64,000 nucleotides of DNA, taken from a virus. The stretch spans positions 62,001 through 126,000 of IMG/VR virus record IMGVR_UViG_3300010885_023630; one strand, written 5' to 3'. How positions within the stretch are numbered: the first letter of the stretch is position 1; each line of letters opens with the position of its first letter. The position numbers and the translations under genes are program-made. This document shows positions 58,387 to 64,000 of this stretch, piece by piece. Under the pieces are notes generated by a model. That model was not told the origin of the DNA. It worked only from the letters and a program-made list of their open reading frames with translations, and searched no databases.

Positions 58387-58463
58387 GGGCCTATAGCTCA
58401 GTTGGTTAGAGCAGAGGACTCATAATCCTTTGGTCCCTGGTTCGAGTCCAGGTGGGCCCACCA
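58387..58463 (+). tRNA. tRNA-Ile (CAT anticodon, lysidine type) or Met
   Basis: Acceptor GGGCCTA pairs with TGGGCCC; anticodon stem gagga/tcctt with loop ctCATaa; T-loop GGTTCGAGTCC; encoded CCA. The anticodon region and variable loop (TTGGTC) resemble the E. coli tRNA-Ile2, which reads ATA after lysidine modification, so Ile is favoured over Met. Confidence 0.85.
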
Positions 58464-58474
58464 AATTGAAAACT

Positions 58475-59245
58475 ATGTTTTACGAAAAATTACCATTTAC
58501 CATTGACGTTGAGCGAGCTAGATATGATTTAAATCATACTATATTGCCTCTTGGTGAACCTGTAATGCAAGGTGCCGAATACAACAGCACAGAGTATCAT
58601 GGTTTTGGTGGGTACAGCGTTTTAAGCAGGACTGGAGATTGGCGCGATGGTTGGGAAATGGGACATATTGCTCACTCAGAAGCAAGACAGTATGTTTACC
58701 CAGACGGTATTCCTAACTATCGTGCGTTAAAGTATTTGAATTTTTCGCATGGGTTTGAACACAATACACCTACACAGGCGTATGTGGGAGAGATTCAGCG
58801 AATTGTTGAACAGTTGGCCAATAATGGATTTTATCCTAGACGGGCTCGTATAAGTTTAATGAAAGCAGGAGCAGTAACAACAGTACATCAGGACGGATCA
58901 ATTGATTCGTATATGGCAAGAGTTCATATACCTATTGTAACAAATGACGCTTGTATACATAGTTGCGAAGGAATAGATCTTCATATGCCGGCTGATGGTA
59001 GCGTATATATAATGTGGGTTAATCGGTTACATCAAGCAGTGAATACATCCACGCAAGATAGATATCATATATTGATGGATGTGTATGATACAAATGGATT
59101 AACAGAAAATTTTAAATACGCAAAGGACATAAGTATACTACAACAAGAAGCAGATGCGTTTAGGCAAAAACTTGATGTTATTACTTTATCTCCGGAAGAA
59201 ATTGTAACATACGACGCTATAAAAGCTCAATTTATAAAGAAATAA
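58475..59245 (+). CDS. Aspartyl/asparaginyl beta-hydroxylase-like 2-oxoglutarate oxygenase
   Basis: A 256-residue protein (start at 58475, 11 nt after the tRNA end; earlier in-frame start lies in the tRNA). The Fe(II)-binding triad is visible as H138-x-D140 ('VTTVHQDGS') and H186 ('RLHQAVN'), with R197 ('RYHILMDVYD') for 2-oxoglutarate. This fits the Asp_Arg_Hydrox/aspartyl beta-hydroxylase family. The target could be a protein side chain, nucleotide or metabolite. No RBS is visible; after tRNA 3' processing the mRNA would start shortly before ATG. Confidence 0.8.
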   Translation: MFYEKLPFTIDVERARYDLNHTILPLGEPVMQGAEYNSTEYHGFGGYSVLSRTGDWRDGWEMGHIAHSEARQYVYPDGIPNYRALKYLNFSHGFEHNTPTQAYVGEIQRIVEQLANNGFYPRRARISLMKAGAVTTVHQDGSIDSYMARVHIPIVTNDACIHSCEGIDLHMPADGSVYIMWVNRLHQAVNTSTQDRYHILMDVYDTNGLTENFKYAKDISILQQEADAFRQKLDVITLSPEEIVTYDAIKAQFIKK

Positions 59246-59246
59246 T

Positions 59247-59331
59247 GCCCCGATGGTGGAATTGGTAGACACGCTGGTCTTAGAAGCCAGTACCGCAAGG
59301 TGTGCGAGTTCAAGTCTCGCTTGGGGCACCA
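59247..59331 (+). tRNA. tRNA-Leu (TAG)
   Basis: Acceptor GCCCCGA pairs with TTGGGGC; anticodon loop ctTAGaa in stem gctgg/ccagt-type; long variable arm; T-arm GCGAGTTCAAGTCTCGC; encoded CCA. It begins 1 nt after the hydroxylase stop codon. Confidence 0.95.
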
Positions 59332-59349
59332 ATCAAATAGGAAACTGAT

Positions 59350-59751
59350 ATGTTAGAATGTTTAATCGCAGGCGATTCAATAGCAGTTGGGGTTGCCAAT
59401 GTAAGAAAAGAATGTGTCGCTTATGCCAAGGGTGGGATAAACTCCAAACAATGGCTAGATACAAATATTCAAAATACTCCTTTAATGGCCAAACATGTAA
59501 TTATTAGTCTTGGCTCAAATGATCACAAGTATATTAAAACTGAAGAAGAGTTGCGTACCGTCAGACAGCTAACCAAAGCTGATAGAGTATACTGGGTATT
59601 ACCCAGTACTAAATTTCCAGTTCAACGTGATGCTATTTGGCGAATTGCCAACGAGTACCACGATACCGTACTTAAAACTGAACGTATGCAAGCAGACAAC
59701 GTCCACCCAAGTTGGGCCGGATACAAGGAAATAGCCAAGGCATCCGAATGA
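59350..59751 (+). CDS. Small SGNH/GDSL hydrolase-like protein (133 aa)
   Basis: A 133-residue compact SGNH hydrolase: Ser10 in 'LIAGDSIAVG' (block I), G29 in 'KGGIN' (block II), N57 in 'ISLGSNDH' (block III) and D116/H119 in 'ADNVHPSW' (block V). All four blocks are present, so an esterase or deacetylase activity is likely. It is shorter than most family members. RBS aggaaa before ATG 59350. The stop overlaps the AhpD-like start (ATGA). Confidence 0.85.
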   Translation: MLECLIAGDSIAVGVANVRKECVAYAKGGINSKQWLDTNIQNTPLMAKHVIISLGSNDHKYIKTEEELRTVRQLTKADRVYWVLPSTKFPVQRDAIWRIANEYHDTVLKTERMQADNVHPSWAGYKEIAKASE

Positions 59752-60260
59752 AATGGGTTTCTGTAATACAGGAAATGATACCTGAGTACGCCAAGGATGC
59801 TAAGATAAACCTTGACACAGTACTTAACAATGGCACAATACCCGCTGATGAATCTGAGGGTATAGCACTATCAGCGGCTCTTGCTACCGGTAATACCAAG
59901 TTAACAGCACTTATACAAAGCGATATGGAAAACGCAGTAGAGCGTGATGCGGCCTTGGGCATCGGTGTTTTAATGGCACAAAACAATGTATGGTATTCGT
60001 ATGTTGATATGACACGAGATTTACAATTATCAGCATTGCCGGCTATGTTGCGTATGAGTATTACTGCCAACAACGGTGGAACAACTAAAGAACGTTTTGA
60101 AGCATACAGCTTGGCCGCAAGTATTGTGGGAAAATGTCAATTTTGTACTAAAACGCACTACGACAACTTAAAAAAGTTAGGATATACAGTAGAGCAACTT
60201 CGTGATCTTGGACGTATTGTGGCTACCATTAATTCAATAGCAAAAGTTCTAAATAGCTAA
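59748..60260 (+). CDS. AhpD-like alkylhydroperoxidase (170 aa)
   Basis: A 170-residue protein. The CxxC at C130/C133 in 'GKCQFCTKTHYD', with E118 and H137, gives the AhpD active-site set; in the well-known mycobacterial enzyme E118, C130, C133 and H137 are at the same numbers, whereas H132 is here Phe. AhpD-type proteins reduce peroxides or recycle a peroxiredoxin. A possible role is protecting infected cells from oxidative damage. The start at 59748 overlaps the SGNH stop; longer reading starts lie within that gene. Confidence 0.85.
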   Translation: MKWVSVIQEMIPEYAKDAKINLDTVLNNGTIPADESEGIALSAALATGNTKLTALIQSDMENAVERDAALGIGVLMAQNNVWYSYVDMTRDLQLSALPAMLRMSITANNGGTTKERFEAYSLAASIVGKCQFCTKTHYDNLKKLGYTVEQLRDLGRIVATINSIAKVLNS

Positions 60261-60269
60261 CAAAACACA

Positions 60270-60298
60270 TTGACACAGTATAGCGTTTAATATACAAT
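60270..60298 (+). promoter_or_regulatory. Sigma-70 promoter before tRNA-Leu(TAA)
   Basis: TTGACA and TACAAT are separated by 17 bp, with flanks nearly the same as the promoter at 58349, suggesting duplication of a promoter-tRNA unit. Confidence 0.88.
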
Positions 60299-60322
60299 AA
60301 GACTTTAGTTAGCATACAAAAT

Positions 60323-60409
60323 GCGAGTATGGCGAAATAGGTAGACGCAAGAGACTTAAAATCTCTCGGGGGAGACCCCATGCCAGTTCGATTCTGGCTA
60401 CTCGCACCA
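60323..60409 (+). tRNA. tRNA-Leu (TAA)
   Basis: Acceptor GCGAGTA pairs with TACTCGC; anticodon stem agaga/tctct with loop ctTAAaa; long variable arm; T-arm GCCAGTTCGATTCTGGC; encoded CCA. Confidence 0.96.
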
Positions 60410-60415
60410 TAAATA
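60408..60415 (+). promoter_or_regulatory. Possible late promoter core (CATAAATA) overlapping the tRNA CCA end
   Basis: Seven of eight bases match; two bases are the CA of the tRNA 3' CCA. It lies 86 nt before the TRAP protein start; the core at 60465 is closer. Confidence 0.4.
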
Positions 60416-60464
60416 TACTGTATAAAGCCCGGGATAAACACGCTCGGGTTAGCTAAAACGGCTA

Positions 60465-60472
60465 AATAAATA
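60465..60472 (+). promoter_or_regulatory. T4-type late promoter core (AATAAATA)
   Basis: Seven of eight bases match. It lies 29 nt before ATG 60502. The Shine-Dalgarno ggga is in a 10-bp palindrome ctcccgggag (60483-60492). Confidence 0.7.
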
Positions 60473-60501
60473 CATATATACACTCCCGGGAGAATTCCAA
60501 G

Positions 60502-61476
60502 ATGACAACACCAAGAAAAGTACGCTGGCTAATCGCACATGAGCCACAAGAGCTATTTGTACGTACAGCTCGAGCTTTTTCACAAGAATTAGAAAAGCGT
60601 ATTCCAGGACAGATCGCAATTGAAATTGTAACAGTTCCAGAGTACATTAAAGAACACGAAGGTTCTAAGAACCTACAAACAATTCTAGACGAAAATCTAG
60701 ACAAGCAAGGTGTAGCAGTTGAAGCCCTTTTTGATGCGTTACGTGACGATATCCAAATGAGCCAAACACAGGTTAGCGTAGTTGGTTACAAAGACCGTGC
60801 TTTCCACGCATTGGATTTACCATTCTTATTTGACAATCATGAACACGTTAGCCGTGTACTAGAAGGTCCAATTGGTGAAGAAATTTGTGCCAACTTAGAA
60901 AAAGTTAGCGATGTTAAAGGCCTAGCATTTACATACTCGGGCGGTTATCGTGTGGTTGGTTCTAACCACAAGATTGAAGACCTAGCCGACTTGGCTAGCC
61001 AAAAGGTTATTGTTAGCAACCGTGGTCCACGTGCCGATACATTTGAATCAGTTGGTGTAGAGCCTGTTGTTGTTAGCCCACATTTGTGGGGCGGATACGA
61101 CACAGTTCCAGAAGGTGGTGCCGCTAATGCTATTGAAACTACATACTTACGTTTTAAAGGTACACACATCCTTAAAACTAATCACAGTATTTTCATGACA
61201 ACCATCTTGACCAACAAGGCATTTTGGGAAAGTCTAACAGCAGAACAGCAGACAGCATTTGAAGAAAGTGCTAAAATTACAGCACGTATTGAACGTCAGT
61301 GGGCCATTGCCGATGCTGAGAAGTTCGAACAAGACGCATTAGCAAATGGCATTGAGATCACTGAACTATCAGAAGAAGATACAAAGACAATGAAGCACAA
61401 GTCACGTTACACTTACTTGAAGTTTGATGCGGAAAATAATCGTAGTGATTTGATCAAAAGAATCCGTTTAAGCTAA
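60502..61476 (+). CDS. TRAP transporter solute-binding protein (DctP-like), no signal peptide
   Basis: A 324-residue DctP/TAXI-type solute-binding protein. It starts at what would be the mature N-terminal strand ('KVRWLIAHEPQELFVRTARAF') with no signal peptide or membrane anchor, so it should stay in the cytoplasm or in the virion. Family features: 'ALDLPFLFDNHEHVSRVLEG', 'GLAFTYSGGYRVVGSNHKIE', 'FESVGVEPVVV' and 'THSIFMTTILTNKAFWESLT'-like C-terminus. No TRAP membrane subunits are in the window. It has its own late promoter, strong RBS and clean codon pattern, so it is probably made in quantity late in infection. It may bind a dicarboxylate-like ligand. Confidence 0.8.
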   Translation: MTTPRKVRWLIAHEPQELFVRTARAFSQELEKRIPGQIAIEIVTVPEYIKEHEGSKNLQTILDENLDKQGVAVEALFDALRDDIQMSQTQVSVVGYKDRAFHALDLPFLFDNHEHVSRVLEGPIGEEICANLEKVSDVKGLAFTYSGGYRVVGSNHKIEDLADLASQKVIVSNRGPRADTFESVGVEPVVVSPHLWGGYDTVPEGGAANAIETTYLRFKGTHILKTNHSIFMTTILTNKAFWESLTAEQQTAFEESAKITARIERQWAIADAEKFEQDALANGIEITELSEEDTKTMKHKSRYTYLKFDAENNRSDLIKRIRLS

Positions 61477-61482
61477 TAGAGG

Positions 61483-61511
61483 TTGACAACAAAAGGTAAA
61501 TAAACTACAAT
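61483..61511 (+). promoter_or_regulatory. Sigma-70 promoter upstream of tRNA/RNA cluster
   Basis: TTGACA and TACAAT are separated by 17 bp. A late-like GGTAAATA lies in the spacer (61495-61502). No equally good promoter is seen before the structured RNA. Confidence 0.8.
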
Positions 61512-61521
61512 AGATACTATT

Positions 61522-61653
61522 ATGAAACTAAGAACTTGTAAACATTCCATAAGTAACCAGCCACAATTAGGCGTGTCAGCCTATTGGCCTACTTTTGCGA
61601 TGTCAACAATTATTAGTGATAATCGTGAACCACTAGTCGGGGGTCTCAGTTAA
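61522..61653 (+). CDS. Possible leader peptide (43 codons)
   Basis: An ORF of 43 codons starting 'MKLRTCKHSI' and ending 'EPLVGGLS', about 4 nt after the predicted start of transcription and without an RBS. Its stop codon TAA lies in the 5' arm of a 12-position helix that overlaps the next terminator. It may be a leader peptide that couples translation to read-through; it may also be only part of a structured leader. Confidence 0.4.
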   Translation: MKLRTCKHSISNQPQLGVSAYWPTFAMSTIISDNREPLVGGLS

Positions 61654-61686
61654 CGTATAGTACCTAACAGTATTTTAACTAAGACC
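61642..61686 (+). promoter_or_regulatory. Attenuator-like hairpin overlapping a terminator
   Basis: GGTCTCAGTTAA (61642-61653) pairs with TTAACTAAGACC (61675-61686), 11 of 12 positions. The 3' arm shares ACC (61684-61686) with the terminator stem, so full formation of both is not possible. Confidence 0.6.
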
Positions 61687-61718
61687 TCGGAACTAAACAC
61701 TCCGAGGTTTTTGTTTTT
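61684..61718 (+). terminator. Rho-independent terminator in the leader of the tRNA cluster
   Basis: Stem ACCTCGGA/TCCGAGGT (8 bp, 9-nt loop) followed by ttttgttttt. It lies before the two small genes and the RNA/tRNA cluster, so expression of these needs read-through or another promoter. Confidence 0.88.
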
Positions 61719-61732
61719 ATAAGGAAAAGAAA

Positions 61733-61885
61733 ATGTTGAAAACTGATAAACCAAAAGTTTTGCCTAGTCAGTATACAATAACGCAGGCACAAAAACTTGC
61801 GTTGATAGAAGGCAAACTACAACGAGCCGAAGCTCACGTTAAGGCATTAACAGAAATTGTTGAAAAGCTGGAACGTAAGAAGTAA
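61733..61885 (+). CDS. Tiny helical protein (50 aa), unknown
   Basis: A 50-residue protein with aagga 7 nt before ATG. The second half is a charged, heptad-like helix ('LIEGKLQRAEAHVKALTEIV'), likely a coiled coil. Not recognised. It directly follows the terminator and precedes structured RNA A. Confidence 0.6.
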   Translation: MLKTDKPKVLPSQYTITQAQKLALIEGKLQRAEAHVKALTEIVEKLERKK

Positions 61886-62230
61886 GCTCAAAGTGTGTAA
61901 GGGAAACGAGGTCCCAGTCTGCACTTAAAACATGGACAAACGGGCGGACAGTATGATGAAAGCGTTGGCGATAACACGTGAGTAAAACTACTGGTCAGGG
62001 TATTAACCCTGTCTATGGCTTGGCAACAGGCCATATCTTAAAGCGTATTAGACGAGAGCGTCCAAAGGTCCTGAACACCTTGTGGGGCAGGGCACGGAAT
62101 CACCGTGACACTAGTATGCTTTAAGATACACTTTAGAAGAACATGCCTAAGCACCACATTGATAAAGTGGATTGCCAGAGCAGCCGGATATAAACGGAAA
62201 GTAGGTTGACAATCCTACCACTAAAGTGTA
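61886..62230 (+). ncRNA. Structured RNA A, unassigned (possible GOLLD-like 5' part)
   Basis: No ORF spans these 345 nt. Direct reading shows many compatible helices: an 18-bp stem with two G-U pairs (62034-62051 with 62111-62128); an adjoining 8-9-bp stem (62129-62136 with 62221-62228); hairpins at 61996-62011 (cagggt/accctg), 62015-62034 (atggc/gccat), 62051-62062 (gacg/cgtc) and 62093-62107 (cacgg/ccgtg); and a 6-bp stem 61917-61922 with 61944-61949. The two long stems abut and could stack. It ends 14 nt before tRNA-Tyr. Boundaries and family are not certain. Confidence 0.7.
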
Positions 62231-62243
62231 AAATTGTTTTATT

Positions 62244-62330
62244 GGAGATGTAGGAAAATTGGTAACCCCAGTGGACTGTAAATCCGCCGCCCGCAAGGCA
62301 CTACTGGTTCAACTCCAGTCGTCTCCACCA
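62244..62330 (+). tRNA. tRNA-Tyr (GTA)
   Basis: Acceptor GGAGATG pairs with CGTCTCC; anticodon stem gtgga/tccgc with loop ctGTAaa; long variable arm as in bacterial tRNA-Tyr; encoded CCA. Confidence 0.95.
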
Positions 62331-62339
62331 ATTTAATTT

Positions 62340-62416
62340 CGGAGTGTAGCACAGCCTGGTAGTGCGCCTGGTTTGGGACCAGGAGGTCCAAGGTTCGAAT
62401 CCTTGTACTCCGACCA
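62340..62416 (+). tRNA. tRNA-Pro (TGG)
   Basis: Acceptor CGGAGTG pairs with TACTCCG; anticodon stem cctgg/ccagg with loop ttTGGga; T-arm AAGGTTCGAATCCTT; encoded CCA. Confidence 0.96.
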
Positions 62417-62424
62417 TGTTTTAT

Positions 62425-62500
62425 TGGCCTATAGCTCAGTTGGTAGAGCACTTGACTGTTAATCAAGGTGTCCCTGGTTCGAGCCCAGGTTGGCCAGCCA
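62425..62500 (+). tRNA. tRNA-Asn (GTT)
   Basis: Acceptor TGGCCTA with TTGGCCA (one T-T mismatch); anticodon stem cttga/tcaag with loop ctGTTaa; discriminator G as expected for Asn; encoded CCA. Confidence 0.94.
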
Positions 62501-62801
62501 AATTTAGTCCCGCAAAGGCTATGACGTTCAATCCCTAGAATGTTATCCTCAAACTTGCGAGGCGGGTGTAAGTCCCGTCATTAAAAACTGATACACAGGA
62601 TGGCGTTGTGTACAGCGGATATTCAGCCTGAGGACTGTCGTCCAATAGTTAAAAGACTATATGATATCACTTTAGGGAGTGATGCCATATAAAAACACAT
62701 CTATGATCTGGGATATGCGAATGCGTACATAGAAACTAAGATCCCACTTGTTAGTGGGTACGGGAGTGAAAATCTCCCTAGGTGTGTTTTTATATGTCTA
62801 T
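62501..62801 (+). ncRNA. Structured RNA B, unassigned (possible GOLLD-like 3' part)
   Basis: No ORF spans these 301 nt. Helices read directly: a perfect 14-bp stem 62686-62699 with 62783-62796 that encloses a hairpin-rich loop; hairpins 62743-62758 (cccact/agtggg) and 62762-62778 (gggag/ctccc); a possible pseudoknot from 62700-62705 with 62728-62733 and 62709-62714 with 62741-62746; upstream a hairpin 62666-62683 (atcact/agtgat), a stem ctga/tcag with tacaca/tgtgta (62588-62626), and cccgc/gcggg (62509-62513 with 62562-62566). Some helices are alternatives to each other. It ends 5 nt before tRNA-Ile(GAT). Confidence 0.7.
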
Positions 62802-62878
62802 GCCACCATAGCTCAGTTGGTTAGAGCACCGTCTTGATAAGGCGGGGGTCCATGGTTCAAATCCATGTGGCGGCACCA
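62802..62878 (+). tRNA. tRNA-Ile (GAT)
   Basis: Acceptor GCCACCA with TGGCGGC (one A-C mismatch); anticodon stem ccgtc/ggcgg with loop ttGATaa; encoded CCA. Confidence 0.93.
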
Positions 62879-62887
62879 GTATATTAA

Positions 62888-62895
62888 GATAAGTA
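62888..62895 (+). promoter_or_regulatory. Possible late promoter core (GATAAGTA) directly before tRNA-Ala
   Basis: It ends 6 nt before the tRNA 5' end, so a T4-type start would fall at 62901-62902, at the mature tRNA start. Same variant as at 31521 and 47038. Confidence 0.4.
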
Positions 62896-62901
62896 AACAA
62901 T

Positions 62902-62977
62902 GGGGGTATAGCTCAGCTGGGAGAGCAGTAGCTTTGCAAGCTAAAGGTCGTCGGTTCGATCCCGTCTACCTCCACCA
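62902..62977 (+). tRNA. tRNA-Ala (TGC)
   Basis: Acceptor GGGGGTA pairs with TACCTCC (one G-T); anticodon loop ttTGCaa in stem gtagc/gctaa, with one G-A mismatch at the outer pair; encoded CCA. Confidence 0.93.
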
Positions 62978-62995
62978 AACACAAGGAGAAGCTGT

Positions 62996-63139
62996 ATGTC
63001 AAAGAATGAAGACACTTTAAACAAAGCATACGGCAACATGCCTAAGGACGTTGGTTTTATTGTTGATCTTGATTGGTTACCTACGTGGAGAGGCTTTAAG
63101 TATTACTACTATAAGTTAATACGTAAAGCAACAAGATAA
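62996..63139 (+). CDS. Tiny protein (47 aa) among tRNAs, unknown
   Basis: A 47-residue ORF with aaggag 7 nt before ATG. It reads 'MSKNEDTLNKAYGNMPKDVG' then an aromatic/basic C-terminal half with four consecutive Tyr and a Lys/Arg-rich end. The good RBS makes it likely to be expressed from the tRNA transcript. Not recognised. Confidence 0.6.
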   Translation: MSKNEDTLNKAYGNMPKDVGFIVDLDWLPTWRGFKYYYYKLIRKATR

Positions 63140-63145
63140 GATTTT

Positions 63146-63232
63146 GGAGGGTTGGCCGAGCGGTAAGGCAACAGATTGCTAATCTGTCATCCAGCAATGG
63201 GTGGATTGGTTCGATTCCAATACTCTCCGCCA
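63146..63232 (+). tRNA. tRNA-Ser (GCT)
   Basis: Acceptor GGAGGGT pairs with ACTCTCC; anticodon stem acaga/tctgt with loop ttGCTaa; long variable arm; discriminator G; encoded CCA. Confidence 0.95.
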
Positions 63233-63237
63233 TTTAT

Positions 63238-63313
<76 letters not shown>

Positions 63314-63318
63314 AGTTT

Positions 63319-63394
63319 GGGTCGTTAGCTCAGTTGGTAGAGCGTCTGCCTTACACGCAGAATGTCGGCAGTTCGAACCTGTCACGACCCACCA
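63319..63394 (+). tRNA. tRNA-Val (TAC)
   Basis: Acceptor GGGTCGT pairs with ACGACCC; anticodon stem tctgc/gcaga with loop ctTACac; encoded CCA. Confidence 0.96.
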
Positions 63395-63400
63395 GTTTAT

Positions 63401-63477
63401 GGCTCGGTAGTTCAGTCTGGCAGAACGTTGGTCTCCAAAACCAAATGTCGGAGGTTCAAATCCTTCCCGGGTCGCCA
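63401..63477 (+). tRNA. tRNA-Trp (CCA)
   Basis: Acceptor GGCTCGG with CCGGGTC (two G-T pairs); anticodon stem ttggt/accaa with loop ctCCAaa; discriminator G; encoded CCA. Confidence 0.93.
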
Positions 63478-63487
63478 ATATAACTAT

Positions 63488-63565
63488 AGTGCGGTGCCAG
63501 AGTGGTCCAATGGGTCGGATTGCAAATCCGTAAAGCCGTGAGTTCAAATCTCACCCGCACTTCCA
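63488..63565 (+). tRNA. tRNA-Cys (GCA)
   Basis: Acceptor AGTGCGG pairs with CCGCACT; anticodon loop ttGCAaa in stem cgga/tccg; discriminator T as expected for Cys; T-arm GTGAGTTCAAATCTCAC; encoded CCA. Confidence 0.92.
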
Positions 63566-63571
63566 ATCTTA

Positions 63572-63647
63572 GGTAATGTAGAACAATTGGTAGTTCACCT
63601 CCTTCATACGGAGACTGTTACTGGTTCGAGTCCAGTCATTACCACCA
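63572..63647 (+). tRNA. tRNA-Met (CAT), elongator type
   Basis: Acceptor GGTAATG pairs with CATTACC, including a normal first pair, so it is not an initiator; anticodon loop ttCATac in stem ctcc/ggag; encoded CCA. Confidence 0.9.
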
Positions 63648-63649
63648 CA

Positions 63650-63726
63650 CGGCCCTTAACTCAATTGGATAGAGTGCTAGTCTTCGAAACTGGAAGTTGG
63701 GAGTTCGAATCTCTCAGGGCTGACCA
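63650..63726 (+). tRNA. tRNA-Arg (TCG)
   Basis: Acceptor CGGCCCT with AGGGCTG (one G-T pair); anticodon stem ctagt/actgg with loop ctTCGaa; encoded CCA. Last tRNA of the cluster. Confidence 0.92.
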
Positions 63727-63785
63727 TACTTGAGTAGTAGAATATTTTCACATATATAACATAATTAAATTTTAAGGAGTCGTTG

Positions 63786-64000
63786 ATGGAAGTTCATATA
63801 GATGCTAGTCCAAAACTGAGTAAGTATATAGAATCGTTGCTTCCATCCTTAATGGAACAGACTGGATTAAACAGAAGTAAAAAATTTCTATACATCAAAA
63901 CAGATAAAGATATAGATGCAGCTGGGCAAACAATTCCATTACCTGGTATTGACACATACCTTATTGTGTTATGTCCTACTAGAAACTATATTGAGTTGGG
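63786..64000 (+). CDS. Partial gene running off the right end, unknown
   Basis: At least 71 codons are open from ATG 63786 to the end, with aaggag 7 nt upstream. The visible part begins 'MEVHIDASPKLSKYIESLLP' and contains hydrophobic strands ('IDTYLIVLCP'). It lacks a recognisable motif. The stretch 63727-63785 before it contains only an AT-rich leader. Confidence 0.7.
   Translation, partial: MEVHIDASPKLSKYIESLLPSLMEQTGLNRSKKFLYIKTDKDIDAAGQTIPLPGIDTYLIVLCPTRNYIEL

Follow-up and report, generated by a model that had tools for sequence, protein, structure and literature searches.

The stretch of DNA analysed here (64,000 nucleotides; hereafter, the window) represents positions 62001–126000 of a 126,980-base virus record. 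Among cultured phages, the nearest relatives of its terminase are found in PA5oct-like phages and other large myophages (~54% identity), and terminase relatives of the window phage in IMG/VR possess rich tRNA arrays. ARAGORN identified fifteen tRNA genes in the window, spanning 58387–63726. Within this array, a spacer of 301 nucleotides, home to an RNA that we call R3, separates tRNA-Asn(GTT) (62425–62500, + strand; ARAGORN and Rfam tRNA) from tRNA-Ile(GAT) (62802–62878, + strand; ARAGORN). No plausible open reading frame spans the spacer and a protein-coding reading was rejected, as the compensatory changes described below indicate RNA.

A sigma-70-like promoter sequence (TTGACA-17-TAAAAT; 62206–62234, + strand) lies directly 5′ of tRNA-Tyr and scored 11/12 in a consensus scan; such a match is not proof of function, and we regard it as a candidate promoter for a transcript running through tRNA-Tyr, tRNA-Pro, tRNA-Asn, R3 and tRNA-Ile. 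As a scan of 61400–63800 found no terminator-like site on the + strand after this promoter, co-transcription of R3 with these four tRNAs appears likely.

The array includes other elements of note. At 60502–61476 lies a gene for a protein that resembles, by eye only, DctP-type (TRAP) substrate-binding proteins; this neighbour gene retrieved no related loci when used as a search query. The start of the array (61477–61733) is a conserved non-coding stretch, the third in the region, with similar sequences in many related arrays; it contains a promoter-like sequence (TTGACA-17-TACAAT; 61483–61511) and, near 61683–61716, a hairpin with a U tract that looks terminator-like by eye but is absent from the scan listing, and is possibly a leader or attenuator. 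Another structured RNA, R2 (61878–62243; the first of two in an earlier note on this DNA), is conserved in about 40 loci, with compensatory changes at 18 of 32 predicted pairs (n = 10 sequences), and is built like R3, with a terminal hairpin followed by a clamp helix (62034–62129).

Fold and conserved core of R3

The spacer has a predicted folding energy of −98.9 kcal/mol (z = −5.15), with none of 100 shuffled sequences equally stable, and its 3′ part (62686–62796) folded alone gives z = −7.65 (0/200 shuffles). Relatives of the part upstream of this 3′ region were first retrieved with nhmmer and their alignment revealed a conserved core whose loops are fixed and whose stems vary; a motif scan added more. 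Matches to the core motif in genome contigs were dismissed as chance, scoring ≤15 bits with the covariance model, and an exact-sequence pattern drawn from the helix described below had no matches. From 15 sequences aligned with MAFFT, without structure and not fitted to any model (alignment A1), RNAalifold predicted 44 pairs, of which 27 show compensatory changes.

The covariance model, R1, recovers 30 copies, 25 of them distinct members (including the window), of which ten lie outside the seed and score 59–109 bits. In the window the core, ~185 nt long, occupies 62502–62684 (+ strand; 164.9 bits), and the clamp helix P8 follows directly behind it. In an alignment of the 25 members (A3)—fitted to the model and thus biased towards it, although the structure-free A1 agrees—95.5% of cells are paired, and 34 of 49 pairs and 260 cells have changed on both sides. 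The covariation score of the core is 0.58, against 0.195 when shuffled (0/500) and 0.08 with slid partners (n = 25).

These results bear out much of the earlier note, which had proposed a structured RNA of 301 nt packed tightly between the two tRNAs. The spacer has that extent, tRNA-Asn ends 1 nt before the RNA model starts and the last helix ends 5 nt before tRNA-Ile, with a similar arrangement in many relatives; a perfect 14-bp stem predicted at 62686–62699/62783–62796 is present exactly there; and covariation was found in both the core and P8, so that together with fold stability relative to shuffles it confirms the structured RNA. On this comparative evidence, we consider it almost certain that R3 is a conserved structured RNA family. 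It is a previously unlisted family of structured phage non-coding RNA in tRNA arrays, represented in the window by 62502–62796.

All helices of the core lie on the + strand. The 5′ domain is closed by P1, a long-range pairing of GUCC (62507–62510) with GGAU (62617–62620) in which three of four pairs show double changes. P2 (62516–62550), a hairpin with the invariant loop UCCCUA (62532–62537), has double changes at all 11 pairs, while the P3 hairpin (GGCGGG-UGUAAGU-CCCGUC; 62561–62579; double changes at 3/6 pairs) is missing from two sub-families and a helix at 62589–62593/62609–62613 pairs poorly in the window. P5 (GGAC-UGUC-GUCC; 62632–62643), a helix in the 25-member alignment, is nearly invariant. 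The P7 hairpin (62666–62683), with the loop UAGGG(A) at 62673–62678, covaries at 6/6 pairs, and P7b, formed by 62658–62663 with 62686–62691, is paired in 98% of cells, with double changes at 4/4 pairs. The window thus shows each of the features by which members are recognised: P1, P2 with its UCCCUA loop, P5, P7 with its UAGGG loop, and P7b. Besides its long-range helix, the core has about 45 invariant positions.

The P2 loop (UCCCUA) and the P7 loop (UAGGGA) are complementary, essentially invariant and paired in 25/25 members. Their contact is a candidate kissing loop that probably closes the core; as both loops are invariant, it comes without proof from covariation.

Distribution among phages

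Beyond the window, R3 has 24 further distinct members in IMG/VR and one in a cultured phage, Limnohabitans phage DC31 (PQ492658). Searching cultured phages by blastn with the 301 nt yielded nothing useful, and DC31 was found with a better-conserved relative as query; its copy matches the model at 113 bits (E 9e-34). Immediately 5′ of that copy is an unannotated tRNA-like sequence with a CCA end, identified by eye as a tRNA, and the 3′ end of the copy directly precedes the Shine–Dalgarno sequence of a coding gene. Six tRNA genes are reported for DC31 in the covered passages of its description, which do not mention the RNA (PMC12195039). Among the 25 members, about eight cores start ≤5 nt from an upstream tRNA and about nine P8 helices end ≤14 nt from a downstream one, and the neighbouring genes vary from member to member.

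The complete DC31 record holds no detectable relative of the window phage's terminase. No such relative was detected either in five of seven other R3 records tested, several records being fragments, and two of the seven gave only a marginal, partial match of 15 bits. To judge from these searches, R3 is distributed across phages that lack a similar terminase. The R3 model found no match in five cultured phages tested or in 32 records, many of them fragmentary, whose terminase is related, and these absences point to R3 being dispensable.

The clamp helix, its inserts and an alternative pairing

The A-rich 5′ arm of P8 (62686–62703) and its U-rich 3′ arm (62779–62796; both + strand) were delimited by helix search and pairing probabilities, together with covariation for the former and comparison of members for the latter. 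They extend the 14-bp stem to 18 pairs (62703/62779), one of which is G·U, and the first 17 pairs have a pairing probability >0.93 in the window fold. P8 lies directly behind P7 in 23 of 25 members, including the window, with 12–19 Watson–Crick pairs; the two members without it have a longer P7 instead. Covariation is seen at 13 of 16 pairs, although the arms were located by complementarity search, which makes the percentage paired partly circular; a P8-like helix arises by chance at about 0.1% per site, as estimated from a mispaired control.

AU-rich inverted repeats are common and the 3′ arm contains U5, features that might suggest a chance fold or a transcription terminator. With the covariation, the z-score of the spacer and the lack of any + strand terminator-like site from 61400 to 63800, such an origin is extremely improbable: covariation refutes a chance fold, and a terminator was rejected since the U tract sits inside the stem. 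MITE-like terminal repeats were also rejected on covariation.

Between the arms, P8 holds an insert (62704–62778, + strand) that, by member comparison and insert clustering, is variable and not conserved. Inserts range in length from 12 to 188 nt and their sequence differs from member to member. Clustering of all inserts produced 25 families with at least three sequences, some of them common to R3 cores and plain tRNAs (Lys, Glu, Gln, Leu), and one family, aligned separately, shows compensatory changes in an inner hairpin. Because inserts vary among members and their families are common to R3 and tRNAs, the insert is a replaceable module.

The earlier note had treated the spacer as a single structured unit of about 300 nt. 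It is structured, but conservation in the alignment is confined to the core and the clamp, so that one conserved fold for the whole 301 nt was rejected in favour of a conserved core followed by a clamp with a replaceable insert. Most of the hairpins and the H-type pseudoknot that the note had proposed fall inside the insert. The letters for the pseudoknot exist (UCUAUG 62700–62705/CAUAGA 62728–62733; UGGGAU 62709–62714/AUCCCA 62741–62746), but the proposal is not supported: its first stem overlaps four P8 bases (62700–62703), and its second clashes with the hairpin 62743–62758, which has a pairing probability of 0.95–1.0 in a calculation unable to model pseudoknots. The window's insert sequence is common to no relative, hence covariation is silent on the pseudoknot. 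The note's idea of two alternative states accordingly finds no support as pseudoknot versus hairpin, but does find evidence elsewhere, at P7b versus P8.

In many other phages, ordinary tRNAs carry a clamp of this kind at their CCA end, and arms of the 14-bp helix recur in the terminase relatives of the window phage in IMG/VR. A helix-only pattern that allowed any sequence between the arms matched >100 contigs. Among 140 elements (the pattern-found loci plus three earlier ones), 138 lie ≤3 kb from tRNA genes, 93 have a 5′ arm beginning at the end of a tRNA (the CCA end) and 79 have a tRNA ≤20 nt downstream. When loci were chosen regardless of the helix, a clamp of at least 16 bp was present on 6 of 307 tRNAs (mispaired controls, 0.0). 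Inverted repeats of at least 12 bp numbered 373 in the fetched loci against 36 in local shuffles, a roughly tenfold excess that is biased upward, as most of these loci had been selected by the helix pattern.

Could clamp and insert, sometimes with the core, be a mobile or recombining cassette, selfish or exchangeable, spread through recombination at the ends of tRNAs and without a role for the carrier phage? The recurrence of the same insert families behind Lys, Glu, Gln and Leu tRNAs and R3 cores would fit, as would the presence of R3 at varied tRNA positions in phages without a similar terminase. We think this improbable, however, as many compensatory changes in the arms have left their pairing intact, whereas repeats bound by a recombinase should hold one sequence; in addition, the core displays strong RNA covariation and there is no protein gene inside.

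Several other clamped elements were observed. Two clamp-closed RNAs of about 230–300 nt look alike by eye between different phages, one at L095:11243-11471 and L108:3699-3936, the other at L097:3834-4129 and L099:2736-2994. Clamped inserts in loci L117, L130, L136, L224, L258 and L143 contain a sequence resembling a tRNA T arm (GGTTCGAATCC), as if degenerate tRNAs had been captured within the clamp. At L113:7963-8072, clamp-like arms surround a whole tRNA-Glu in an order inverted from that of other clamps, the U-rich arm coming before the A-rich one.

The first six bases of the P8 5′ arm (62686–62691) can pair either with 62658–62663 (P7b) or with 62791–62796 (P8). Both pairings covary and they are mutually exclusive at these six bases, while the remainder of P8 is compatible with P7b. 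In the window ensemble P8 dominates (≥0.93) and P7b is minor; forcing P7b costs 4.9 kcal/mol, as computed without coaxial stacking or loop contact. This strand exchange is the best-supported site for alternative states, and with it the RNA would be able to open and reclose its own 3′ end.

That P7b and P8 both covary for one strand also suits the main rival to a role in trans, a processing or expression switch acting in cis in the array. In this reading P8 and the P7b/P8 exchange would control how the 3′ end of the RNA upstream, or else the tRNA or gene that follows, matures, and the core would not be an independent trans-acting RNA. P8-like arms often start in the upstream tRNA CCA end and end beside the next tRNA, as counted above; the basal strand of the neighbouring R2 hairpin likewise starts an A-rich arm; and in DC31 the RNA stands directly before a Shine–Dalgarno sequence. 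In a pure processing hairpin, however, a 185-nt core that includes a long-range helix and ~45 invariant positions would be superfluous, as would structured insert families recurring across different phages, and the flanking genes vary among members, so we hold this reading to be unlikely. Also doubtful, if conceivable, is a modular device, in which a covarying helix would clamp exchangeable structured inserts onto the 3′ end of any preceding RNA (tRNA, R3 core or R2 core) and a conserved strand exchange with the last helix of the host RNA would serve as a maturation switch.

Known RNAs of tRNA islands and a possible role

At gathering score, tRNAs were the sole window matches in a search against Rfam 15, as proposed in the earlier note; at E ≤ 5, the region 61450–63150 gave tRNAs and weak, chance-level matches, with no GOLLD. 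RNAs C and D of phage T4 (rnaC/rnaD, species 1 and 2) resemble R3 in adjoining tRNA genes, at a spacing of 1–6 nt, and measure 119–139 nt; we know of no function for them. Homology finds no support, as the R1 model has no match in the whole T4 genome, rnaC ends, unlike R3, in a tRNA-like T arm, and both rnaC and rnaD lack the long clamp helix of R3.

GOLLD (RF02032), a phage and prophage RNA found near tRNA islands, and ROOL, a phage RNA often found there, are comparable in setting (PMC12286853). The function of GOLLD is unknown and many of its members exceed 800 nt, while ROOL is abundant and non-essential, with no known function, and its env-120 representative is 659 nt long and forms a nanocage (PMC12286853). 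The conserved 3′ domain of GOLLD was unmatched in the window at the Rfam cut-off and its conserved motifs differ from those of R3; ROOL did not match the window region in the Rfam 15 scans. In kind, R3 belongs with the structured RNAs of phage tRNA islands, and is not GOLLD, ROOL or T4 RNA C/D. A GOLLD RNA with a tRNA in its linker does occur in a terminase relative of the window phage (L095:10025-10489, − strand; 214 bits).

By analogy with these RNAs, we lean towards R3 being a released RNA that acts in trans. It would probably be freed by tRNA-processing enzymes, with maturation of the tRNA-Asn CCA end creating its 5′ end and an RNase P cut at the 5′ end of tRNA-Ile its 3′ end. P8 would return the 3′ end to the core, protect the ends and keep the insert displayed, and the freed RNA of ~300 nt, with its ends paired, would act in trans during infection, as is supposed for T4 RNAs C and D, GOLLD and ROOL. 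On the model of GOLLD and ROOL (PMC12286853), R3 may serve infection as an abundant accessory RNA.

Phage tRNA islands were already known for large RNAs of unknown function, including GOLLD, ROOL and T4 RNAs C and D. What is new is the R3 family, with its well-defined fold, and a modular clamp that it has in common with ordinary tRNAs. As DC31 is in culture and infects an abundant freshwater bacterium, the role of tRNA-linked phage RNAs is now testable, and our findings suggest that the spacers in the tRNA arrays of large phages are packed with unannotated structured RNAs.
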